A stretch of 64,000 nt of DNA, taken from the NCBI RefSeq assembly GCF_900110255.1, contig NZ_FODD01000036.1, positions 1-64,000 on the forward strand, in the 5' to 3' direction. The DNA comes from Actinacidiphila rubida (lineage in GTDB: Bacteria; Actinomycetota; Actinomycetes; Streptomycetales; Streptomycetaceae). Below, piece after piece: positions 751 to 62,825 of this stretch. The stretch's first letter is position 1. The number at the start of each line of letters is the position of its first letter. Position numbers and translations under genes: made by a program. The notes below the pieces were generated by a model. The model was given only the letters and a program-made list of their open reading frames with translations. It was not told the DNA's origin and did no database searches.

Positions 751-2655
751 TCAGGCGGCGGCGGTGGCCGACGCCTGGCGACGGTGACGGCGGGCGTAGT
801 ACAGGCTGCCGGCGCCGACGACGAGCACACCCGCGGTGATCCCGAGCGGCAGGGCCGGGGACGAGCTGCCGGTCTCCGCCAGGGTCTGGGTGCTGGGGTT
901 GTTGCCCGAACCGGTGCCGCCGCCCGTGGTGGAGGAGGCCGGCGCGGCCGGGTTGGTGTGCTTGGAGATGTGCTTGACCGACTTCACGGAGCCGTTGTCG
1001 TTCAGCAGCACCTGCTCGTTGTTCGGGTGCCGGAAGTCGAACGCGCCGTAGAGGGAGTTGGCCCGCTGGTCGAACGACGCGTCGCCGACGCGGCCGGTCC
1101 GCCAGTTGTCCTCGATGAACTTGGTGACCGAGGCCTGCTCGGTGCGGGTGTGGTCGACCGAGTTCACCTTGCTGTAGGGCGAGATGACCAGCAGCGGCTG
1201 GCGGGTGCCCGGTCCGCAGCGGTCGGCGTAGCCGCCGGCCGCGGCGGGACCGGCCTGGCAGGCCGGGCTGTCGATGGCCTTGCCGTTGGAGCCGACCGTG
1301 CTGTCCTTCGAGCCGGTCTGCGGGGCGGCGTAGGCGTGGTCGTACCAGCCGTCCGAGTCGTCGTACGCGACGACGACCGCGGTGTCCTTCCAGGCGTAGG
1401 AGGACTGGATCGCGTTGATCTCCTTGACGAGGAAGTTCTGCTCGTCGGTCGGGTCCGAGTAGGCGGCGTGGCCGTCCTGGTACTCGGCGGCCTTCAGGAA
1501 GCTGACGGCCGGCAGGTTGCCCGACTTGAGCGCCGCGTCGAAGTCGGTCAGGTCGTAGTTGTGGTTGGCCTGGCCGTTGTGGCCGATCTCGGCCGTGGTC
1601 TTCGGCGCGAGGTGGTGCGGGTTCGCCGTGGACTTGTAGTACTGGAACGGCGAGTGGTGCGGGCTGTAGTCCACCGAGGACGCGCCGGCGATGTTGGTGT
1701 GCGTGCTGCCCGCGCAGCTGGCGTAGTCGCCCTGCTTGCCGTCCCACGCGGTGGAGGGACGGAAGCCGCCCTGGAACCAGCCCCAGGTCACGTTCTTGGC
1801 GTTGAGCAGGTCACCGATGTTCTTGCCCTGCATCGAGGCCAGCGCGTTGGTGCTGCTGTGGCTGTTGTCCGAGCAGTCGTCGTAGGCCGGGTCGGGGTCG
1901 TTGATGACCGTGCCGACGCCCTGCGCGTTCGGGGACAGGACCGTGTACGGGTCCGGGGTCGCCGTCTGCGTGGGGTTCTCGGTACCGGTCTTCGGGTCGA
2001 CCGAGATCACGCCGTGCGTCTGACCGGAGATCAGGTTCAGCGCGCCCGGGGTGGAGGGGCCGTACGTGCTGCTCCACGAGTTGTCGCCGAGCGAGTAGTG
2101 CTGGGCGTAGTTCCACAGACCCGTGACGGTGTTGCCGTCGTAGTAGTCCATGACCAGGCCCGGCTCGCCGAAGAGGCCGCCGGAGCACTTGCTGGTCTCG
2201 GTGTTCTGCACGTAGGCGTCGGCCTTGCCGCCGTCCGCCGCGTACTGCTCCGGGCCGTAGCCGTGGTTCTGGTCGCAGGTGACGGCCTGGGAGGGCGTCA
2301 GACGCTTGGGGGCGTACTGGTTCGGGTTGGTCTTCAGCAGGCCCGCGTGCGCGACGGTGTCGATGTTCTTCGGCGTGTGCTTGTCCGCCGTGAACGTCGT
2401 GCCGTCGGTGTTGGCGGCCTGCGGGTACGTGCCGAAGTAGTGGTCGAACGAGACGTTCTCGTCGTAGATGACGACCACGTGCTTGATCGGGGTCGTCGTC
2501 TCGGTGCCCCCGTGGTGCGCGGGGGAGTCCGCGTTGGCCGGCGCCGTGCCGCCCAGCAGTACGAGCGCGGCCGTGCCGGCGTACGCCCCCCAGCGCGCGG
2601 CGCGCATGCGCGCGCCCGCCTTCCCTCTCCTGCCCGTACCGCTCGTGGTGCTCAT
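751..2655 (-). CDS. Cell-wall-anchored phosphoesterase (phospholipase C / acid phosphatase family)
   Basis: This 634-residue protein starts with a Sec signal (hydrophobic core about residues 22-42). The phosphoesterase domain (the PF04185 type of non-haemolytic phospholipase C and AcpA-like acid phosphatases) follows. It shows the signature IKHVVVIYDENVSFDHYFG at about 57-75, plus later YDDSDGWYDHAY and GPGTRQPLLVISPYS motifs. A Ser/Thr/Gly-rich linker leads to LAETG (592-596), a hydrophobic segment and an Arg-rich tail. That is a complete sorting signal of the LAXTG type used by class E sortases, so the enzyme is probably wall-attached and removes phosphate from extracellular esters. The substrate (phospholipid or phosphomonoester) cannot be told from sequence. 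A PHO-box-like element lies upstream. Confidence 0.85.
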   Translation of the reverse strand: MSTTSGTGRRGKAGARMRAARWGAYAGTAALVLLGGTAPANADSPAHHGGTETTTPIKHVVVIYDENVSFDHYFGTYPQAANTDGTTFTADKHTPKNIDTVAHAGLLKTNPNQYAPKRLTPSQAVTCDQNHGYGPEQYAADGGKADAYVQNTETSKCSGGLFGEPGLVMDYYDGNTVTGLWNYAQHYSLGDNSWSSTYGPSTPGALNLISGQTHGVISVDPKTGTENPTQTATPDPYTVLSPNAQGVGTVINDPDPAYDDCSDNSHSSTNALASMQGKNIGDLLNAKNVTWGWFQGGFRPSTAWDGKQGDYASCAGSTHTNIAGASSVDYSPHHSPFQYYKSTANPHHLAPKTTAEIGHNGQANHNYDLTDFDAALKSGNLPAVSFLKAAEYQDGHAAYSDPTDEQNFLVKEINAIQSSYAWKDTAVVVAYDDSDGWYDHAYAAPQTGSKDSTVGSNGKAIDSPACQAGPAAAGGYADRCGPGTRQPLLVISPYSKVNSVDHTRTEQASVTKFIEDNWRTGRVGDASFDQRANSLYGAFDFRHPNNEQVLLNDNGSVKSVKHISKHTNPAAPASSTTGGGTGSGNNPSTQTLAETGSSSPALPLGITAGVLVVGAGSLYYARRHRRQASATAAA

Positions 2656-2768
2656 GCTGTGTCAGCCTCCGCTACGTGACGCTCAAGTGGTGCTTTTCAG
2701 CGTGCTGCGTGTAAATCGTGCACGTGTCGAACGCGATCGTCGGGGTGGTTCGCAACAGGGCTTCGGCC

Positions 2769-2801
2769 CCGTGGTGGCGTCCGGGTGAACAGCGGGTCAG
2801 A
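2769..2801 (-). promoter_or_regulatory. Possible PHO box (PhoP direct repeats)
   Basis: Read on the minus strand, consecutive 11-nt units are TCTGACCCGCT (2791-2801) and GTTCACCCGGA (2780-2790), then a weaker CGCCACCACGG (2769-2779). GTTCACCC is close to the streptomycete PhoP direct-repeat consensus, and the downstream gene is a phosphatase, a typical PhoP target. The first and third units are degenerate. Confidence 0.4.
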
Positions 2802-2873
2802 TAATCCAGGACAAGTCTTGACCCGTCCTTTACTGTCGTGGTGGCCGAACGTGAGGTGCGGGCCACCACCCGG

Positions 2874-4148
2874 TCATGACAGCAGCGTGCGGCCCAGCCA
2901 GTCGCTCCGGTCGCGCACGCCCGGCAGGGCGAAGAAGTAGCCGCCGCCGAACGGCGACACGTAGTCGACCAGCGGCTCGCCGGCCAGCCGCTTCTGCACC
3001 GTCTCGAACTGCCGTGCCAGGTCCTGCTGGTAGCACACGAAGATCAGGCCGACGTCGAGGTTGCCGTTGCCGTCCATGCCGCGGTCGTAGTTGTATCCCC
3101 GGCGCAGCAGGCGGGAGTTGTCGGTCTGCGCGGTGCGCGGGTTGGCCATCCGTATGTGGCTGTCCAGCGGGATGACGTCGCCCATCGGGTCCTGCGGGTA
3201 CTTCGGGGTGTCGAACTCCTTCGAGCCGTCCAGCGGCGCTCCGGTGTCCTTGGCGCGGCCGAACATCCGTTCCTGCTCGGTGATCGAGACCCGGTCCCAG
3301 AACTCCACCAGCATCCGGATCAGCCGCACGACCTGGTACGAACCGCCGGTCGTCCATGCGGGCTCGCCGCCGCCGGACACCCACAGCAGGCGGTCGGCGG
3401 TCGCGGGGTCGGCGACGTCCGGGTTGGCGATGCCGTCCTTGAACCCCAGGTGGTTGCGCGGGGTGCCGCTGGGCCGGGGCGGGCTGGAGAAGCCGTCGAG
3501 CCGCCAGCGCACCTGCATGCCGCCGCGGGTGTGCCGGGCGATGTCCCGGAGGGCGTGCAGCACGGCGTCCTGGTGCGGCGCGGTCAGCTGGAGGCTCAGG
3601 TCGCCGTGGCACCAGGACGGGTCGAGGTCGTCGTCGGCGAACGCCGGCATGGTGCTCAGCCGCAGCGGCTTGCGGTCCTTCAGGCCGAACCGGTCGTCGA
3701 ACAGCGACGCGCCGACGCCGACGGTCGCGGTCAGCGCGTCACCGGGCACCTGGGGGCCCAGCGTGCCGCTGTCGGAGGGCGGCCCGGTGATGCCCAGCGC
3801 CTTCGGCGTGCCGCCCGAGGTCAGGAACCGCGCCCGCTCGGTGAGGGTGTGCAGGAGTTCGGTCAGTTCGCGCCGGTCCGCCGCGGTCACGTCGAACGAC
3901 AGGAACGCGGTGGCCTGCTGCGCGGGCCGGGTGATCCCGGCCTGGTGAGCGCCGTGGAACTGCGCGTCCTGTGCCGGGCCCGGCGTCGCGGACGGCGTGG
4001 GCGTCGCCGCCTGCGCGGGCCCGCCGGTGAGGGCCGCAGCCGCGGCGCCGGCCCCGGCGACCGCGCCCACCGTGCCGACACCCAGCGCCGCTCCGCGCAG
4101 GAACCCGCGCCTGCGCAGGTCGCCCACCGCGTCAGGGGTGTCGCTCAT
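2874..4148 (-). CDS. efeB: EfeB-type DyP peroxidase, Tat-exported
   Basis: 424 residues. The N-terminus has a twin-arginine signal ([12 protein letters not shown], about 13-24) and a hydrophobic Ala-rich core, so a folded haem protein is exported. The dye-decolorising peroxidase fold is shown by [10 protein letters not shown], the GxxDG motif carrying the distal Asp, and by [10 protein letters not shown], whose His is the expected proximal haem ligand. The C-terminal motif [11 protein letters not shown] is also present. The ATG start overlaps the efeO stop (ATGA), so the two genes are translationally coupled. In EfeUOB systems EfeB works with EfeO in periplasmic or surface iron acquisition. 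No EfeU permease gene adjoins. Confidence 0.92.
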
Positions 4149-5533
4149 GCCGTCCTCCGTACGTCGAAGATCGCCGCCACCGGGGCGAGTTGTTCCAGGA
4201 GATCGCCGGTGTCGGCGTTGATCCGCTCGCGCTGGGCCTGTCCCAGCCGGTCCAGCGGGGTCCACGTGCCGCCCTTGCCGGCGGCGTCCAGCGCGTGCTG
4301 CAGCCGGTCGAGCGCGGCGTCCAGTTGCGGCACCGCGGGGTCGCGCGGGGTGAGCAGCGGGCGCAGCCGGGAGAGGATCTCGCGCGTGCCGTCGAGGTTC
4401 GCCCGGGCGGTCGCCAGGCTGGTCCCGCTGCCGTAGTCGGTCCGGCCGGTCAGTTCGAACTGCTCGGTGTTCTCGATGATCTCGTGGGCGCGCAGTCCCA
4501 TGTCGGCCGGATCCATCCGGGCCTGCGACCATCCGTCGCGCAACGCCCTGGCGGCGCTGTCGAGTCCGGCGGCCGGTGCCTTGAGCGACGCGGCGGACTC
4601 GCCGTGCCACAACCCGTACTCGACCCGGTGGAAGCCGGTGAACGACGGGTCCCGCACGGCGCCCGGGGTGCGGGCCGCGGTGCCGTTGATGACGCCGTCG
4701 GCGTCGCCGAACGTCCCGTAGGCGGCGCCCATCCGCTCGTAGACCAGGTGTGCGGAGAGCCAGTCGCGCTTGGCGGCGGCGAGGTCGCCGCCGTCGATGT
4801 CGGCCTCGAGCGCGGCCGTGCCGCGGGCCAGGTCGCCGGCTCTGGCGCCGATCCACTGCTGGTAGGCCAGGGTGGGCGGGATCAGGTCGTGCTCGGTGAC
4901 CGGCAGGGTCGACGGGCCGCGTGGGGTGCTGCCGGGCACGGTGACCTTGGGCCCGGTGATGGCGTCGGTGTCCTCCTGCAGGCACTTGAAGGCGTACGTG
5001 CCGCTGCCGAGGTCGACCAGCATCTGCCGGGTGGTACCCGGCGCCAGGCCCTCCAGCTCGCCGAACAGCCGGCCGGACGCGGGGTCGGCGAGGTAGACCT
5101 CGCTCGCGCCGGAACCGGAGTTGTGCAGGTCGAAGACCTGCGTTCCGGGGTGCGGGCTGGTCCAGCCACGGCCGCAGGACCCGGTCGAGACCTCCACGGC
5201 GGTGTGCGGCAGTCCGTCGGCGGCGGGCGTGGCCGTGCCGCCCTGACCCCCCTTGCCGTCGCCGTCCCCGTCGTGCCCGCCGCCGGCCAGCACGGCCACG
5301 GTGACCACGGCGGCGACCGCGACCACGGCGCCGGCCGCCAGCCCGATCGTGCGCGGCACGCGGGTGCGGGGCGGCGCGGCGGCGGTTATGGCGCCCGGCT
5401 CCCCGTCCGCCTCCGCCGCCCGGGCGGGGTCGGGTGCGGCGGCCGTGGCCGAGGGATCGCTGTCGGATTCGGCGGACACGCCGGCCTCCGGGTGACGTTG
5501 CAGTGGTTCGTTGGCGCCGCTCATGCTAAGCAC
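4145..5533 (-). CDS. efeO: EfeO-type iron-binding protein (cupredoxin plus imelysin/M75 domain)
   Basis: 462 residues. After about 60 hydrophilic residues a single membrane segment (about 62-85) anchors the protein; this is not a classical cleavable signal. A cupredoxin-like domain (about 105-205) precedes a C-terminal imelysin/M75 domain containing HRVEYGLW, the HxxE metal-binding motif of EfeO/EfeM proteins. The GTG at 5533 is chosen because GGAGG lies 5 nt upstream; an in-frame ATG at 5524 is the alternative. It is the first gene of an efeO-efeB operon. An iron box about 75 bp upstream suggests repression by a DmdR/IdeR regulator when iron is plentiful. Confidence 0.88.
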
Positions 5534-5857
5534 GCGGCCCTCCGCGAACCCACCCGCTCAGGGGGAGGCGGCCCACAATTCCGGCGCAGTTCACCCGCTC
5601 GACACTGTTAGGGCACCCTCACCAGGGTTTCCGGGCCGGAAGATCGCCGCGCCGGCGTTCCGGCCGCACCGCTGGTCGAGGCGCTGGACGTGACCGGAGG
5701 CCGGGCGGTGCGGGATCGCGCGCCGGCCCTCGGACCGTTCCACGGCGCCGAGTTCCGCCGGCCGGGCGCCGTGATGCGGGCCGCGAAAGACGTCCGGCCG
5801 GTGCGGCTCTCGCCACCCCGGCCGGATGTCACGTGCGGCGATGACCGCCGGCGTGCG
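5534..5857. other. Intergenic region upstream of efeO
   Basis: This 324-bp stretch between the efeO start and the GH3 stop holds the putative iron box (5608-5626). No reading frame resembles EfeU or any other known protein, so the efe operon has no permease gene on this side. Confidence 0.5.
5608..5626. promoter_or_regulatory. Iron box (DmdR/IdeR-like operator)
   Basis: The 19-mer TTAGGGCACCCTCACCAGG matches the actinobacterial iron box TTAGGTTAGGCTAACCTAA at 11 positions, including the leading TTAGG and the internal CT and ACC. It lies 75 bp upstream of efeO, an iron-acquisition gene, which adds weight. The right half-site is degenerate. Confidence 0.5.
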
Positions 5858-7180
5858 TCAGGTGCAGCTGAGCAGCCCCGCGTTGTGCTTCTCGTCGAGC
5901 ACCCGCACGACCGCGTCGTGGACGTCCTTGGCGAACGCGGAGTTCTGCGGGATGCGGGCCAGCACCGCGGACGTCATGGGAGCGATGTCCGCGGGGTCGA
6001 CGGTCAGGACGATGTCGCCGCCGGCGGCGACGAAGTCCACCGCACGCTGGGCGGGCGTGTGGTCCTTGACCGCGACCGCGTTGCCGAGGTCGTCGGAGAT
6101 CACGACGCCGTTGAAGCCGAGGGAGCCGCGCAGCATGCCGCGGATCACGGTGGAGGAGAAGGCCGCCTGGGTGGCCGGGTCGATCTTGGTGTAGATCGCC
6201 GACGAGACCATGATGAACGGGCTGCCGGCCTGCACCGCGCTGCGGAAGGGCGCGAGGTACGGGTCGTTGCTGGTGGTGACGGTGTCCTTGACGTTCGCGG
6301 TCGTGTCGGTGTTGCCGGTCACCCGTCCCAGGCCCGGGAAGTGCTTGGCGGTGGGCAGGACGCCGGCCAGCTGCATGCCGCGCAGGAACGCGGTGCTGTG
6401 CGTGGCGACGGTGGCCGGGTCGTTGCCGTACTCCCGCTGCAGCTTGCCGATCGGCGCGTTGACGTTCACCAGGTTCGGCGGGACGGTGTCCGCGACCGGC
6501 GCCAGGTTCATGTTGACGCCCGCCGCCTTGAGCTGGCGTCCCCACGCCGTCGCGTTCTGCTGCAGCGTCGCGGGGCTCATCTGTCCCTGCGCGACTCCGC
6601 TGGGCATGGTGCTGAAGCCCGGACCGCTGAGGACCTGGACCTTGCCGCCCTCCTGGTCGGTGGAGACCAGCATCCGCACGGTGACCCCGCGGACGTTCGG
6701 CGACAGGTTCTGCACCCGGCCGGTCACCGACCTGATCGCGGAGGTCCCGGCCGAGCTGTGGCCCATCAGGATGACGGCGCCCGTCCTGCCCTGGGTGATG
6801 GCCGTGGACTCGGCGGAGGTCAGACCTGACGTGGAGACCGCCGACATGAACAGCTGGCCCACGCGCTGCGCCTGCGTCATCCCGTCGTAGACCCGGCTCA
6901 CGCAGCTCTGCGTCGCCTTGGAGGTCGGGGAGGGGTGGGCCGGCGGGGGCACCGTCGCGCTCGGGGACGCCGAGGGGCTGCCAGAGGGCGAGGTGGCCGA
7001 CGCGGAGACGGAGGCGGAGGTGGACTCGCCGGACGCGGAGGAGGTCCCCGGCGAGGCGGTGTGGTCGTTGCCGCAGGCGGCCACCGCGATGAGCACTCCG
7101 AGCGCCACGGCCGCCTGGCCGCCTCGGGCCTGGGCGGCTCGGCGCCGTGATGTCCTGGCTTGGACGGTCGTCTTGCGCAC
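5858..7180 (-). CDS. GH3-family glycosidase lipoprotein (beta-N-acetylhexosaminidase-like)
   Basis: 440 residues from the GTG at 7180, chosen because GAGG lies 6 nt upstream and the signal then begins properly; the frame stays open far upstream. The N-terminus has Arg-rich residues (TSRRRAAQ) and a hydrophobic core ending in the lipobox VAAC, so a lipid-anchored extracytoplasmic protein is expected. A long Ser/Pro/Ala linker follows. The GH3 domain carries LVSTDQEGG, AKHFPGLG and VISDDLGN (nucleophile Asp), as in NagZ-type enzymes that release N-acetylglucosamine from peptidoglycan or chitin fragments. Substrate choice is inferred from family only. Confidence 0.82.
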   Translation of the reverse strand: MRKTTVQARTSRRRAAQARGGQAAVALGVLIAVAACGNDHTASPGTSSASGESTSASVSASATSPSGSPSASPSATVPPPAHPSPTSKATQSCVSRVYDGMTQAQRVGQLFMSAVSTSGLTSAESTAITQGRTGAVILMGHSSAGTSAIRSVTGRVQNLSPNVRGVTVRMLVSTDQEGGKVQVLSGPGFSTMPSGVAQGQMSPATLQQNATAWGRQLKAAGVNMNLAPVADTVPPNLVNVNAPIGKLQREYGNDPATVATHSTAFLRGMQLAGVLPTAKHFPGLGRVTGNTDTTANVKDTVTTSNDPYLAPFRSAVQAGSPFIMVSSAIYTKIDPATQAAFSSTVIRGMLRGSLGFNGVVISDDLGNAVAVKDHTPAQRAVDFVAAGGDIVLTVDPADIAPMTSAVLARIPQNSAFAKDVHDAVVRVLDEKHNAGLLSCT

Positions 7181-57549: not shown

Positions 57550-58482
57550 TCAGGCGTGGCCGGCGCCGAAGCCCGGGGTGGACCAGGTGGTGCCGTCGGG
57601 GCGGACGGCGAACGCCTCCGTGGCGGGGAGGCCGCGCAGCCAGCCGGGAGCCGACGCACCCCTCGCGTACGCCGCGGTGGCCAGCACGTCGGCGTCGGTC
57701 AGGCCGCGGCACACCACGGTCACCGAGGCGAAGACCGGCTCGACGGGGCGGTGGGTGCGCGGGTCGAGTATGTGCGCGCCGCGCTCGGCCGCCCCCGAGG
57801 TGGCGACCGCCAGCTCACCGTCGGCCTCCACCAGGGTGGCCAGTTCGCCGCGGCGCAGCGGGTCGGTGACGCCGATCCGCCACGGCCCGCCGTGCACCTG
57901 GACGTCGCCGCCGCCGTTGACGCAGACCGCCTCGGCGCCCGCCGAGCGCAGCATCGCGGCCGCCCGCTCCACTGCCCAGCCCTTGACCAGGCCGGTCGGG
58001 TCGAAGCCGCCCGCGAACTCGGCGTCGAACCAGCCGTCCGTGGTGCGGCGGGCCGCGTCGCACAGCCGGTGCACCTCCCACACCTCCGGCGAGCAGGCGG
58101 ACAGCGCGAGCGTGCCCGCCGCCAGCCGGCTGATCTGGCTGCCCTGCCGGTACGTGGAGAAGACCTCGTCCACGTGCCGCAGGAACTCCACCGCGGCGTC
58201 CACCGCCGCACACACGCGCCGCGGGTCGCCGCCCCGGACGTCGAAGGAGAACACGGTGCCCATGGTGTGCTCGACCCGGCGCAGCCGCTGCTGCCCGGCC
58301 GCCGCGGACCCCGTCGCCTCGGCCGGCGCCGTGACGGCGGGGATCGCCACGGACGACGTCACCGCCTCCGCGGCCGGTCCGGACACCGGTTCCGGGGCGG
58401 CCGGCGGCGTGACCGGCAGGGAGGACGCCGCGGACGGGTCGCCGAAGCGGCGGGCGGCGCGGACGACGCGGATCTCCGCCAT
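57550..58482 (-). CDS. apbE: ApbE: FAD:protein FMN transferase
   Basis: 310 residues. After a low-complexity N-terminal 65 residues, the ApbE fold shows EHTMGTVFSFDVRGGD, FSTYRQGSQISRLAAG, FDPTGLVKGWAVERAA, CVNGGGDVQVHGGPWRIGVTD (in part) and ATSGAAERGAHILDPRT. It attaches FMN from FAD to a Ser/Thr of the SGAT-type motif, here surely in the protein encoded one base upstream. Unusually, no signal peptide is seen, though the target is outside the membrane. Third gene of the reductase, FMN-binding, apbE operon. Confidence 0.92.
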   Translation of the reverse strand: MAEIRVVRAARRFGDPSAASSLPVTPPAAPEPVSGPAAEAVTSSVAIPAVTAPAEATGSAAAGQQRLRRVEHTMGTVFSFDVRGGDPRRVCAAVDAAVEFLRHVDEVFSTYRQGSQISRLAAGTLALSACSPEVWEVHRLCDAARRTTDGWFDAEFAGGFDPTGLVKGWAVERAAAMLRSAGAEAVCVNGGGDVQVHGGPWRIGVTDPLRRGELATLVEADGELAVATSGAAERGAHILDPRTHRPVEPVFASVTVVCRGLTDADVLATAAYARGASAPGWLRGLPATEAFAVRPDGTTWSTPGFGAGHA

Positions 58483-58483
58483 C

Positions 58484-59044
58484 TCAGGCCCCCGCCTTGT
58501 CGAGCGCGCTCTGCAGCGACTGCACGTAGCCGCCGCTCGTATACGTCGCCCCGGAGACGGAGTCGATGTGCGCGCTCTGCGCCGCGAGCGCCTCCTGTGT
58601 CAGCTGCGGCACCGCGAAGCCCGAGATCTCGGTGTCGCGCGGGTTGTCCTGCGGCAGCTGGATCGCCGTCACCGCGGTGATCTTGCCGCCGGTCAGGGTG
58701 ATCCGCAGCTGCACCGGTCCGTAGCGGGTCTGCACCGCGTCGCCGTCCACCGTCCGCGTCGTTGGGGACTTCGCGGGTGCCGGCGACTTCGGAGACGCCG
58801 ACGGCTGCGACGGTTTCGCCGGCGACGTGCTCCCGCCACCGGATCCGGTGGACGGGGACGGCGACGGGGTTCCCGGTTCGGCGGGCGCCGACGTCGGTCC
58901 GGACGACGGGGTCGATCCCGCGTCCACCGACAGCGCGCCCGCCGTCGTGTGCGGCTTGAGGGAGAGCAGGAGCAGGCCGCCGGCCGCCGTGGAGACGGTG
59001 GTCAGCACGATGCGCCGCAGCGGGCGGGAGGGAAGTGCGCTCAT
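58484..59044 (-). CDS. FMN-binding domain protein, covalently flavinylated, membrane-anchored
   Basis: 186 residues; GAGGG lies 8 nt before the ATG at 59044. An N-terminal basic stretch and membrane segment (about 8-30) are followed by a long Ser/Pro/Thr/Lys linker (about 40-95). An FMN-binding domain (about 98-183) has VQLRITLTGGKITAVTAIQLP and ends in SGATYTSGGY, the flavinylation motif (T of SGAT). ApbE follows after 1 bp. The domain would carry electrons outside the membrane from the upstream transmembrane reductase. Confidence 0.9.
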   Translation of the reverse strand: MSALPSRPLRRIVLTTVSTAAGGLLLLSLKPHTTAGALSVDAGSTPSSGPTSAPAEPGTPSPSPSTGSGGGSTSPAKPSQPSASPKSPAPAKSPTTRTVDGDAVQTRYGPVQLRITLTGGKITAVTAIQLPQDNPRDTEISGFAVPQLTQEALAAQSAHIDSVSGATYTSGGYVQSLQSALDKAGA

Positions 59045-59055
59045 GGGTCAGGCCC

Positions 59056-60426
59056 TCACAGCTCGAAGGACTCGTGGTGGATGCGGCCGGCCGGCACTCC
59101 GGCCTCGCGCAGCGCGGCGTAGGACGCGCGCATCAGCCCGGGCGGGCCGCACAGGTACACGTCGTGCTGGGCGATGTCCGGCAGCGCCGCCGTGAGCCCG
59201 CGCGCGGTGAGCACCGGCCGCCGGCCGTCCGGCGTGTTGAGCGCGAACTGCAGCCGGGCCCCGCGGGCGGCCGCGATCGCCTCCAGCTCGCTCCGGAGCG
59301 CCAGGTCCTCCGCCGACCGCGCGCGGTAGATCAGCGTCAGGTCGCCGGGACGCGCCGGCAGCGACTCGAACAGCGCCCGCAGCGGTGTCACGCCGACCCC
59401 GCCCGCCAGCAGCAGCACCTTCTGCCGGGTGCGGCGGTCCGCGGTGAGCGCGCCGTACGGCCCCTCCGCCCAGATCCGGGTGCCGGGCCGCAGCCGGGCC
59501 AGCGCCGCGCTGTGCCGGCCGACCTCCTTCACCGTGATCCGCAGCAGGTCCGGGCGGGGCGCCGCCGACAGCGAGTACGGGCTCGCCGTCCACCACAGGC
59601 CCGGCGTCAGGAACCGCCAGCGCAGGAACTGGCCGGGCCGCGCCGCGAGATCCGGCAGCCGCTCGCCGCGCACCACCACCGACACCACGTCCGGCGCCTC
59701 GCGCACCACCGCGTGCACGCGCAGCCGGTGCCGCGTGTTCTGCCGCAGCGGGACCAGCAGCCGGTACCAGAGCACCGCGGCGGCCGCCCCCAGGTAGAGC
59801 ACGTACCAGAACACCCGCGCCGGGGCGTTGCCCGCGAAGTCGGCGCCCAGCGCGAGCTGGTGCCAGAAGGCCAGGAAGATCGCCGCGTAGGTGAGCAGGT
59901 GCAGGTAGTACCAGGTCTCGTACGAGACCTTGCGGCGCACCGCGCCGACCGAGACCGCGCCCACGAGGAGCAGCAGCAGCCCGCCGATCGTGCCCTTGAT
60001 CATCTCGGGATACGTGAGGGCGACCGTCCAGGCCTCGCTGACCACCCCGGAGTGCGCCTGCACGGCGTAGCCCCACAGGATCAGCGTGATGTGCGCCACC
60101 AGCAGGCACACCGTGTAGCGGCCCGCCATCGCGTGCCAGCGGGCGACCCGGTCGCTGCCGACCCCCTGCTCCAGCGCGGGGATCCGGGCCATCAGCACGA
60201 CCAGCAGCGCGCAGCAGTAGCCGGCCAGCAGGCCCGCGATCCGGCCCGCGCCGATGAGCCAGTCGGCCGGACCCACCACGGACCCGGTGTCGTGCCACCA
60301 CAGCCCGACCACGGCCGCCGCCCCCAGCCAGCCCAGGGCCAGCACCACGGGGGCGGGTGACCGCCGGGCGGGCTTGGCGGAAGCGACCGCGTGGCGCGCG
60401 GGACGCGGGGGAGAGGTGGTGCTCAT
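59056..60426 (-). CDS. Transmembrane ferric-reductase-like flavohaem oxidoreductase
   Basis: 456 residues; AAGGA lies 8 nt before the ATG at 60426. About six membrane segments (residues 25-225) carry several His that could bind haem (WHAMAGRY, LVAHITLILWG, YYLHLLTYAAIFLAFWHQL). The cytoplasmic half has a ferredoxin-reductase fold: the FAD-binding block WTASPYSLSAAPRPD, GPYGALT, and the NAD block LLLAGGVGVTPLRALFE with VYLCGPPGLM. It takes electrons from NAD(P)H and passes them through the membrane. First gene of the flavin electron-transfer operon and divergent from a two-component system. Confidence 0.9.
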   Translation of the reverse strand: MSTTSPPRPARHAVASAKPARRSPAPVVLALGWLGAAAVVGLWWHDTGSVVGPADWLIGAGRIAGLLAGYCCALLVVLMARIPALEQGVGSDRVARWHAMAGRYTVCLLVAHITLILWGYAVQAHSGVVSEAWTVALTYPEMIKGTIGGLLLLLVGAVSVGAVRRKVSYETWYYLHLLTYAAIFLAFWHQLALGADFAGNAPARVFWYVLYLGAAAAVLWYRLLVPLRQNTRHRLRVHAVVREAPDVVSVVVRGERLPDLAARPGQFLRWRFLTPGLWWTASPYSLSAAPRPDLLRITVKEVGRHSAALARLRPGTRIWAEGPYGALTADRRTRQKVLLLAGGVGVTPLRALFESLPARPGDLTLIYRARSAEDLALRSELEAIAAARGARLQFALNTPDGRRPVLTARGLTAALPDIAQHDVYLCGPPGLMRASYAALREAGVPAGRIHHESFEL

Positions 60427-60473
60427 AGGCGGGTTCCTTCCAGGTGGTTCGCCGACCACTGTGCGGGGGAAAC

Positions 60474-60490
60474 CTCTGAGCCGGCTCTGA
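60474..60490. promoter_or_regulatory. OmpR-type direct repeat in the divergent promoter
   Basis: CTCTGA at 60474-60479 and again at 60485-60490, 11 bp apart, the spacing expected for two head-to-tail OmpR-family monomers. It lies between the reductase operon and the response regulator gene. Confidence 0.4.
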
Positions 60491-60576
60491 AAGTGCCACG
60501 TGAGGGCATATTCACAGCGGATCCAGAGAGACCCGCGGGGCTGACCGCCAGCCCGGTCGTGGATGCTGGAAGCACC

Positions 60577-61308
60577 ATGAACAGCACCGCCCACCCCCTC
60601 AGCCACCCCGACGGCACCCCGGTCCGGGTGCTCGTCGTCGACGACGAACCCGACCTCGCCGAGGTGCTGGCCGGTGTCCTCGGCTACGAGGGCTGGCAGG
60701 TCCGCACGGCCGGCGACGTCGCCGGCGCGGTCGCGGAGGCGCGCACGTTCCGGCCGGACGCGGTGGTGCTGGACGTGATGCTGCCCGACGGCGACGGGCT
60801 CGCCGTGCTCCGCGAGCTGCGGGCCGAGCAGCCGGACGTGTGCGTGCTGTTCCTCACGGCCCGCGACTCCGTCGAGGACCGCATCGCCGGCATCACGGCG
60901 GGCGGCGACGACTACGTCACCAAGCCGTTCAGCCTGGAGGAGGTGCTGGCCCGGCTGCGCGGACTGCTGCGCAGGGCCGGCATGACCAGGGCCCGCGACG
61001 ACGCCGCCGTGCTCACCGTCGGTGACCTGGTGATGGACGAGGACGCGCGCGAGGTGACCCGCGGCGGCGAGGCGGTCGACCTGTCGCCCACCGAGTTCGA
61101 GCTGCTGCGCTACCTCATGCGCAACCCGAGGCGGGTGCTCAGCAAGGGGCAGATCCTCGACCGCGTGTGGTCGTACGACTTCGGCGGCCAGGCCCACATC
61201 GTCGAGCTCTACATCTCCTACCTGCGGCGCAAGATCGACGCCGGGCGGGAACCCATGATCCACACCGTGCGCGGCGCGGGCTACGTGCTGAAGGCGGCAC
61301 CTTGGTGA
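60577..61308 (+). CDS. OmpR-family response regulator
   Basis: 243 residues from the ATG at 60577 (GGAAG upstream). Receiver domain: acidic pocket VLVVDDEPDLAE, phospho-acceptor Asp 66 in VVLDVMLPDGDG, and Lys in DYVTKPFSLEE. The C-terminal winged helix has LTVGDLVMDEDAREVTRGG and LSPTEFELLRYLMRN, with HIVELYISYLRRKID as the recognition region. The stop overlaps the kinase start (GTGA). It is divergent from the flavin operon and is the likely regulator of it. Confidence 0.93.
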   Translation: MNSTAHPLSHPDGTPVRVLVVDDEPDLAEVLAGVLGYEGWQVRTAGDVAGAVAEARTFRPDAVVLDVMLPDGDGLAVLRELRAEQPDVCVLFLTARDSVEDRIAGITAGGDDYVTKPFSLEEVLARLRGLLRRAGMTRARDDAAVLTVGDLVMDEDAREVTRGGEAVDLSPTEFELLRYLMRNPRRVLSKGQILDRVWSYDFGGQAHIVELYISYLRRKIDAGREPMIHTVRGAGYVLKAAPW

Positions 61309-62825
61309 CCCGGACCACCCCCGGGCGGCTGCTCCGGGCGGTCCCGCGCGACCTGGTGCCGCGGACGCTGCGCGCCAGGCTCACCTGCGGCCTCGTGGTG
61401 CTGCTGGCGATCAGCTGCGCCGCGGTGGGCATCGCGGCCGTGCTGGGACTGCGCGCGTTCCTCACCGAGCGCCTCGACCAGCAGCTCGCCGAGGCCGGCG
61501 GCCGGTTCCCGGCGAGCCTGGAGCATGCGAGCAAGAGCCCGGGAACGCCCAGGGAACCCGACGCCGACAACCAGCACGTCGACACCCGCCGCCAGGCGCC
61601 CGGCACCTTCGGCGCGCGGCTCCTGCACGGCCAGGTCACGTCGGCGGCCGTCGTCCGCTCCGGCGCCGACACCTCCGTCGACCTGGCCCCGTCCGACCTC
61701 AGGGCGATCGCCTCGGTCCCGGTCGACGGGCACTGCCACGCCCTGGACCTCTCCGCGCTCGGCGACTACCGGGTCAGCGCCATCGCGGGCGACGACGGGG
61801 ACGTGCTCGTCACCGGCATGCCCATGAGCAGCGTCGAGGACGCCGCCAGCCGGCTCGTCGCCATCGAGGCCGCGGTGTTCGGCGGCGCGCTCGTCGTCGC
61901 CGGCGCGGCCGGCGCCTTCTGGGTCCGCTGGTCGCTGCGGCCGCTGAGCCGGGTGGCCACCACCGCCGCGTCCGTCACCGCGCTCCCGCTGGACAGCGGC
62001 GAGGTGGTCCTGCCCGACCGGGTGCCCGCCGCCGACACCGACCCGCGCACGGAGGTCGGCCGGGTCGGCGCGGCGCTCAACCGCATGCTCGGCCACGTGG
62101 AGGGCGCGCTCGCCAAGCGGCAGGCCGGAGAGGAGCGGCTGCGCCGGTTCGCCGCCGACGCCAGCCACGAGCTGCGCACACCCGTCGCGACGATCCGCGG
62201 GCACGCCGAACTCGCGCTGCGGCACCCCGAGCCCGTCCCGGCCGGCGTCACCAGGGCGCTCGACCGGATCGCCGCCGAGTCCGCGCGGATGTCCGGCATG
62301 GTCGACGACCTGCTGCTGCTCGCCCGGCTCGACGCCGGACGCCCCCTCGCTCGCGAGACCGTCGACCTGACCCGGCTCGTCCTGGACGCGGTGGACGACG
62401 CGCGGGCCGCGGGCCCCGGGCACCGCTGGAACCTCGACCTGCCCGAGGAGCCCGTCGCGATCACCGGCGACGCGCACCGGCTGCACCAGATCGCCGCCAA
62501 CCTCCTGGCCAACGCGCGCGCCCACACCCCCGCCGGCACCCGCGTCACCGTCCAGCTCCGGCAGACCCCCGACGCGACGGAACTCGCCGTCGTCGACAAC
62601 GGCCCCGGCATCCCCGAGGCGCTGCGCGACACCGTCTTCGAGCGGTTCACCCGCGCCCCGCAGCCACGCTCCGGCCACGGGTCGGGCCTCGGGCTGTCCA
62701 TCGTCAGCGCGGTCGCCGCGGCGCACGGGGGCACCGCGCACGTCACCAGCCGCCCCGGGGAGACGACGTTCCGCGTCGTCCTGCCCGCCGATCCGCCGGC
62801 GGAGGACGCTGCGGGCCGGCCGTGA
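61305..62825 (+). CDS. Sensor histidine kinase
   Basis: 506 residues from the GTG at 61305. Two membrane segments (about 27-50 and 188-212) enclose an extracytoplasmic sensor of about 135 residues (with two His and one Cys in DGHCHALD). HAMP-like linker follows, then the H box FAADASHELRTPVATIRGHAE (His 288). The ATPase domain has N box NLLANARAHTPAGT, G1 VVDNGPGIPE and G2 SGHGSGLGLSIV. It phosphorylates the response regulator encoded just upstream. The signal is unknown; redox or metal status is plausible from the neighbouring reductase. Confidence 0.92.
   Translation: MTRTTPGRLLRAVPRDLVPRTLRARLTCGLVVLLAISCAAVGIAAVLGLRAFLTERLDQQLAEAGGRFPASLEHASKSPGTPREPDADNQHVDTRRQAPGTFGARLLHGQVTSAAVVRSGADTSVDLAPSDLRAIASVPVDGHCHALDLSALGDYRVSAIAGDDGDVLVTGMPMSSVEDAASRLVAIEAAVFGGALVVAGAAGAFWVRWSLRPLSRVATTAASVTALPLDSGEVVLPDRVPAADTDPRTEVGRVGAALNRMLGHVEGALAKRQAGEERLRRFAADASHELRTPVATIRGHAELALRHPEPVPAGVTRALDRIAAESARMSGMVDDLLLLARLDAGRPLARETVDLTRLVLDAVDDARAAGPGHRWNLDLPEEPVAITGDAHRLHQIAANLLANARAHTPAGTRVTVQLRQTPDATELAVVDNGPGIPEALRDTVFERFTRAPQPRSGHGSGLGLSIVSAVAAAHGGTAHVTSRPGETTFRVVLPADPPAEDAAGRP

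Follow-up and report, generated by a model that had tools for sequence, protein, structure and literature searches.

The window analysed here is a 64,000-nucleotide stretch of the soil actinomycete Actinacidiphila rubida (contig NZ_FODD01000036.1, positions 1 to 64,000). Near its end, an operon on the minus strand encodes a ferric-reductase-like membrane protein, an FMN-binding protein (FMN_bind) and the flavin transferase ApbE, and genes for an OmpR-type response regulator and a sensor histidine kinase run divergent from it. With somewhat better than even confidence we favour a model in which this locus encodes an electron line to FMN outside the membrane, the FMN carrier is flavinylated in the cytosol and then exported, probably by twin-arginine translocation (Tat), and the two-component system controls the operon through pairs of CTCTGA sites. 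The domains, histidine pairs, FMN motif, anchor, signal-less ApbE, conserved operator and synteny on which the model is built are read from the sequence; the features are as follows.

57550-58482, minus strand: ApbE flavin transferase (PF02424, E 3.5e-39), without an N-terminal signal
58484-59044, minus strand: FMN_bind protein (PF04205) with an N-terminal RR, a single membrane anchor (residues 12-30) ending in LKPH, a long linker rich in P, S, T and G, and an FMN domain with SGATYT
59056-60426, minus strand: six-helix protein of ferric-reductase-like (MsrQ-like) type, bearing two His pairs and joined to a FAD/NAD(P)H reductase domain (PF01794, PF00175)
60474-60490, plus strand: putative operator pair A, CTCTGA-N5-CTCTGA, lying towards the reductase
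60512-60528, minus strand: putative operator pair B, degenerate in the window (TCACAG-N5-CCAGAG), lying towards the regulator, 38 bp from pair A and in the opposite orientation
60577-61308, plus strand: OmpR/PhoB-type response regulator (PF00072, PF00486)
61305-62825, plus strand: sensor histidine kinase with a GTG start and two membrane segments flanking one Cache/PDC-like extracytoplasmic domain (HisKA, HATPase_c, the segments and an AlphaFold2 model)

The operon genes pass the Pfam cut-offs for ApbE, FMN_bind and Ferric_reduct/NAD_binding_1 (57550-60426) and are ordered reductase, FMN_bind, apbE, with intergenic gaps of 11 and 1 bp; the regulator and kinase genes overlap by 4 bp. A first-pass annotation, made from the letters alone, had described just such a tight operon, with a six-helix ferric-reductase-like NAD(P)H enzyme, a membrane-anchored FMN-binding protein bearing SGATYTSGGY, and divergent OmpR regulator and kinase genes. 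The domains, the gap measurement and the coordinates bear this description out, the SGATYTSGGY motif lying near the C-terminus of the FMN_bind protein and the anchor at its N-terminus. The pairing with the two-component genes is conserved: among the best 80 of 586 related loci in named genomes, a sample whose counts lean to close relatives, a divergent regulator and kinase adjoin the operon at 71 (72 of 81 with the window). Three of the nine exceptions lie at a contig edge (L041, L083, L103) and six are without the pair (L049, L076, L087, L096, L104, L111).

A predicted electron path across the membrane

Six hydrophobic segments lie in the N-terminal half of the reductase, ahead of the NAD domain (NAD_binding_1, PF00175, E 5.5e-10); a seventh listed segment (residues 337-355) lies inside that domain. 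His 98, 112, 176 and 189 are kept in 0.99-1.00 of 80 sequences and make up the pairs 98/112 and 176/189, a spacing that would fit two haem sites. Residues 98-446 match 8qt6 by sequence, with a haem membrane domain fused to a FAD/NAD(P)H domain. We take 8qt6, 8qt7 and 8qt9 to be a bacterial (pneumococcal) NADPH oxidase (NOX) homologue; the haem and FAD/NAD(P)H domains are alike in the two systems, whereas the window reductase has FMN_bind and ApbE genes as neighbours. The usual FAD-site motif is RxYS/T, with an arginine; at residues 280-287 of the window reductase the motif is ASPYSLS, with serine in place of the expected arginine, and PYSLS is kept in the family.

Residues 97-184 of the FMN_bind protein match domain 2 of SaFMN3 (8p2a_A, E 1.1e-26), and the SGAT of this domain, an instance of the [S/T]GA[S/T] substrate motif, is invariant across 19 sequences. 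Because of the domains, the four histidines and this solved homologue with covalent FMN (SaFMN3-D2, 8P2A), the first-pass reading of the operon as an extracytoplasmic electron-transfer system is supported, and a path from NAD(P)H through FAD and two haems to covalent FMN outside appears well founded for the window proteins. NAD(P)H would reduce FAD in the cytosolic reductase domain, and the electrons would traverse the membrane via two b haems and reach FMN covalently bound on an extracytoplasmic domain, tethered by its N-terminal anchor and a flexible linker; the FMN would then pass them on to an external acceptor.

The arrangement varies among the relatives. Many Streptomyces loci (within L039-L113) have a duplicated operon, reductase-FMN-reductase-FMN-ApbE, in which the second FMN protein carries up to three SGATY motifs behind a like anchor; the second FMN gene possibly corresponds to SaFMN3.

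Proposed flavinylation of the carrier and its export

ApbE signals were measured as the best 15-residue hydrophobicity average in the 90 residues ahead of the core. None of 72 family frames (71 loci, window included, L070 counted twice) has a signal-like hydrophobic stretch there, the highest value, 1.33, belonging to the window ApbE; neither an N-terminal signal nor a lipobox marks the family as exported. When whole open frames are scanned in place of these 90 residues, one ApbE frame, that of L108, shows a hydrophobic 17-mer (2.25); it lies far upstream, where the frame overlaps the FMN gene, and we judge it to be non-coding. The first-pass annotation had remarked that ApbE shows no export signal although its target should lie outside the membrane, and this proves to be a family-wide trait. 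The core is well kept, with D161-P-x-G-x-V-K-G, G190-G-G-D193, D265 and T269 in at least 95% of 71 sequences, residues that, D265 and T269 included, presumably bind Mg. Elsewhere in the phylum, 26 of 30 comparison ApbEs, taken as the best-scoring loci of a phylum search rather than by random draw, have a signal-like segment, 24 of them at 2.0 or above and two counted by eye as lipoprotein-like (L218, 1.58; L223, 1.95); the four without one are L208, L210, L221 and L222, and four extra partial frames in L194-L223 were dropped. No signal-like stretch was seen in 11 same-genus ApbE rows (L163-L173, maximum 0.99) or in 16 rows drawn from loci that surround remote FMN_bind matches (L174-L192, maximum 1.04). 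At E <= 0.001, two ApbE genes are found in the window genome, a 9.0 Mb assembly; the one on contig C45 scores 1.37. Both are without a signal; therefore no ApbE found in this genome looks able, from its sequence, to act outside. A third arrangement is seen in L209, L218 and L223, other-actinobacterial ApbEs that start with twin-arginine lipoprotein-like signals (compare the Tat-exported NosX).

The FMN_bind protein starts with a conserved element consisting of (R/K)R, about 17 moderately hydrophobic residues with TVSG, and LKPH. N-termini were derived from reading frames, and signals were judged by hydrophobicity and by eye. Before the hydrophobic segment, 118 of 125 resolved anchors have RR, with 4 KR, 2 RK and 1 AR (in 4 of 129 FMN rows the anchor was not resolvable); among other proteins of the same loci with an N-terminal segment, 8 of 41 homology clusters have RR immediately ahead of the first hydrophobic segment. 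The window protein, with RR before a moderately hydrophobic segment, has the form of a Tat substrate, and its genome has one FMN_bind domain and one TatC. An inverted topology, with the FMN domain inside, was rejected by inference from the charge pattern and the long linker.

A similar association is found beyond the operon family. In three genomes of family f35 with a single, signal-less ApbE (G124, G232, G254), SRRxF-type signals are borne by 11 of the 13 FMN_bind proteins that could be resolved; when the [ST]GA[ST] motif is required, Tat-type signals are found in 8 of 9. Three proteins were set aside as unresolved by eye (L279, L294, L297; the script gave RR for L279 and L294), and L306, which has RR, was set aside for want of the motif; in L291, L296 and L300 the frame read shows RR without the motif. 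In 21 genomes with a single, exported ApbE, RR precedes the anchor in 0 of 21 motif-bearing FMN_bind proteins, a group that looks Rnf-type and of a different subfamily. Comparing the signal-less with the exported ApbE genomes gives Fisher p = 3e-7 and 2e-6, with kinship ignored in lineages that are few and related. The genome groups were picked after the window family was known, and the comparison counts as support, not proof.

Since the enzyme appears to be inside and its substrate outside, flavinylation ahead of export is the simplest account. ApbE would remain cytosolic and place FMN on the threonine of SGAT while the domain is still inside, and the FMN-loaded protein would then be exported, most likely by Tat, its twin-arginine type signal being retained as the membrane anchor. 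Tat is the likelier route, and the general secretory (Sec) route its main rival: ApbE would load SGAT on the unfolded chain and SecYEG would thread it through with FMN attached, RR being merely positive-inside charge. Several observations weigh against Tat or favour this alternative. RR is not strict, with 7 of 125 anchors deviating, and a FMN_bind subfamily (L189-L192) carries KR, its ApbE, where found (L189, L192), being without a signal. Counted per protein, RR precedes 94 of 231 other N-terminal hydrophobic segments, so that it is no rarity in these genomes. Where ApbE is signal-less, two FMN_bind lipoproteins appear to be of Sec type (L293, and L298, which bears the motif). Some anchors match the scored ApbE signals in hydrophobicity (L060, 2.89; L092, 2.94). 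In view of the KR, RK and AR anchors and of these two lipoproteins we do not claim strict Tat membership for the anchor family. RR is nevertheless far more frequent in the anchors than among the homology clusters of their neighbours, and canonical SRRxF signals prevail in the other signal-less-ApbE genomes, so that we regard Sec export of a flavinylated chain as unlikely.

A second alternative would have ApbE act outside after all: though signal-less, it might leave the cell, for example carried through Tat as a passenger bound to the FMN_bind protein, and flavinylate it there. Passenger export is known for some Tat complexes. Signals are carried by most other scored ApbEs of the phylum, which argues against export of an ApbE without one. 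Most ApbE/substrate pairs characterised in the literature text available act outside, and NosX, an ApbE relative, itself passes through Tat (PMC7660919), but FAD would be required outside, as the available text of PMC9973259 sets out for FmnB and other ApbEs. We consider this alternative quite improbable.

Flavinylation in the cytosol, followed by export that is probably by Tat, suggests a broader proposal, on which we are evenly balanced: bacteria would have two assembly routes, one in which a Sec-exported protein is flavinylated outside by an exported ApbE, with FAD needed outside, and one in which a signal-less ApbE acts inside and the folded, loaded protein is exported by Tat, the MsrQ-like systems of aerobic actinomycetes using the inside route. 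If true, this yields a simple rule, whereby the presence or absence of a signal on ApbE predicts the export signal of its substrate.

The two-component partner and possible external acceptors

The CTCTGA repeat with 11-bp spacing that had been noticed at 60474-60490 is conserved beyond chance. Of 71 divergent regions, 64 contain CTCTGA-N5-CTCTGA, in either orientation, at one mismatch or none, and 70 at two or fewer, against 1 and 2 for a reversed-pattern control (the 71 include the window; L041 and L094, where the script did not locate the regulator motif, were dropped). The 64 regions are those found at the 5-bp spacer; any other spacer from 0 to 11 gives at most 12 at the same mismatch limit. 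The weaker, inverted pair at 60512-60528, absent from the first-pass annotation, is near-perfect in many relatives; many loci have two inverted pairs, mostly 38 or 39 bp apart, and both are present at two mismatches or fewer in 62 of 71. Among the 72 loci that have the two-component genes, a site upstream of the reductase is present in 65 when two mismatches are allowed and in 58 when one is (control 3); the three loci cut by a contig edge likewise have a site at the looser limit. Where the two-component pair is lacking, there is no site in L087, L104 and L111, a site with two mismatches in L049 and one with a single mismatch in L076; L096 is without a reductase. In L087, L104 and L111 the reductase is paired with FMN_bind alone, no ApbE or two-component genes having been found in the vicinity.

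The regulator combines a receiver with a Trans_reg_C domain and lies beside its kinase, and the half-sites are 11 bp apart, the arrangement of an OmpR-type system with a direct-repeat operator. Based on this conservation and co-occurrence, we predict that the regulator binds the CTCTGA repeat: phosphorylated by the kinase on an extracytoplasmic signal, it would bind the two inverted pairs and control its own gene and the operon.

Within the window assembly a single exact pair is present, at 60474-60490, and nine sites have one mismatch (reversed-pattern control 2). One of the nine lies upstream of a second regulator/kinase on contig C45, with ApbE, Ferric_reduct and a NuoF-like protein; the remaining eight, searched as a possible regulon pointing to the acceptor, show no recurrent theme in the window genome. 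The C45 region is a second flavin-type cluster (L154, G000:C45, about 1500-6805), encoding Ferric_reduct, a NuoF-like protein recognised by eye, a signal-less ApbE and a P/S/T-rich protein without a Pfam match, adjoining the regulator/kinase. Counting the window genome, 53 exact sites were found in 37 genomes (reversed-pattern control 8), eight of them at FMN_bind loci of the operon family. In 36 stretches inspected around exact sites, cold-shock, secreted-protein and FAD-dependent oxidoreductase genes recur in related genomes; we judged these sites to be conserved sequence of close relatives rather than a regulon. In seven related genomes (L227, L230, L232, L234, L241, L258, L259) the exact repeat stands about 205-230 bp upstream of a cold-shock gene and may be a conserved leader, and in L248 (G004:C178) a reductase gene adjoins an exact repeat in a genome without matches in the FMN_bind search.

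The extracytoplasmic domain of the kinase was modelled with AlphaFold2 (pLDDT 90.5). Compared with silver-bound CusS (5ku5), the model gives Z 8.1 and rmsd 3.3 over 107 aligned residues, a middling score tied, among the folds listed, with amino-acid, C4-dicarboxylate and WalK sensors (Cache/PDC). A Foldseek search with the model returned no match at E <= 0.001. A match of the sensor to Neurobeachin, far below the cut-off of that family, was ignored. Many kinase homologues share a SLEH...D.DGDEH.DTR loop, with at least two histidines (that of SLEH included) in 35 of the 40 pattern-bearing rows, among 49. In the window (61446-61862) the loop has an EF-hand-like D-x-D-(G/N) beside the conserved SLEH and could be a divalent-metal site. 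A metal as the kinase signal is a lead only.

Two readings of the acceptor were considered. No acceptor was recognisable by eye among the recurrent neighbour families of the 80 loci and the window, some of which resemble arginine biosynthesis; no family search was made. A tentative possibility is an assimilatory ferric or cupric reductase at the surface, induced by a metal-sensing kinase. The reductase belongs to the ferric-reductase family, the sensor resembles CusS and has the acidic, His-bearing loop after SLEH, and 153 published MsrQ-like clusters include a VIT1 iron transporter (PMC8238504). The middling, tied fold scores of the sensor tell against it, and by eye no metal transporter or siderophore gene was recognised among the recurrent neighbours of the 80 loci. 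Delivery of electrons to oxygen at the surface, by a bacterial device resembling NADPH oxidase, is the less probable of the two and in our view unlikely. The match of residues 98-446 to 8qt6 speaks for it, whereas the dedicated relay through FMN, which takes the form of multi-FMN copies at many Streptomyces loci, suggests transfer over a distance more than direct oxygen reduction. Reduced flavins, moreover, often react with oxygen regardless of their role. Reduced SaFMN3 is oxygen-reactive, according to the available text of PMC10339131, as this reading would have it.

Relation to known flavin-based systems

The operon is a member of the published MsrQ-like flavinylation class. Its PF01794 gene is clustered with FMN_bind and ApbE genes, and the reductase has six segments, two His pairs and PF00175. 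Clusters of this class, which Meheust et al. 2021 (PMC8238504) counted in 1468 genomes, are widely conserved among Actinobacteria and probably driven by NAD(P)H; like the window, they bring together a PF01794 membrane protein with a C-terminal PF00175, an FMN_bind protein and apbE. Under the published filter, one or more of the target genes must have a SignalP signal peptide or a lipidation site; PF00175 is frequent, not universal (PMC8238504). The main text of that article, figures and supplements aside, contains neither 'Tat', 'twin' nor 'cytosolic ApbE', and 'two-component' only in a reference title (PMC8238504). In the available text of the open-licence PMC literature, likewise with figures and supplements aside, we found no case of a signal-less ApbE whose substrate leaves by Tat, nor any two-component system associated with this operon type. 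Relative to the known class, the operon is set apart by an ApbE that lacks a signal while its substrate bears a twin arginine, and by a conserved regulatory system with a paired operator. This actinomycete branch seems to reverse the usual order of ApbE action, and so would not depend on FAD being exported. Through the conserved regulator, kinase and operator one could approach the signal, and hence the acceptor, of this electron-export class.

The literature statements that follow are drawn from the available text of the articles cited. Exported substrates are generally associated with an ApbE placed outside (PMC12052999, PMC9973259, PMC10339131, PMC5928378), and cytosolic ApbEs with cytosolic substrates (PMC12052999). 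SaFMN3 of Streptomyces azureus carries covalent FMN with a potential of -184 mV (PMC10339131; 8P2A). Its FMN domain is like that of the window protein, which has one such domain. SaFMN3 without its N-terminus is flavinylated inside E. coli on coexpression with ApbE, and its authors assume extracellular flavin transferases (PMC10339131), while the ApbEs of the loci studied here are without a signal. Listeria FmnB/PplA (PMC9973259) is similar in having a flavinylated extracytosolic carrier; FmnB, however, works outside and requires FAD export, whereas neither ApbE of the window genome has a signal. The cytosolic ApbE that serves the soluble fumarate reductase of Klebsiella (PMC12052999) is signal-less like the window ApbE, but its substrate remains cytosolic and that of the window is membrane-anchored. 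In Dehalobacter, an apbE lies within a Tat operon (PMC5928378), a nearby but different case. Paracoccus NosX/NirX (PMC7660919) likewise links an ApbE-family protein with the Tat pathway, but there the transferase itself is exported by Tat, whereas in the window ApbE is without a signal and the substrate bears the RR.

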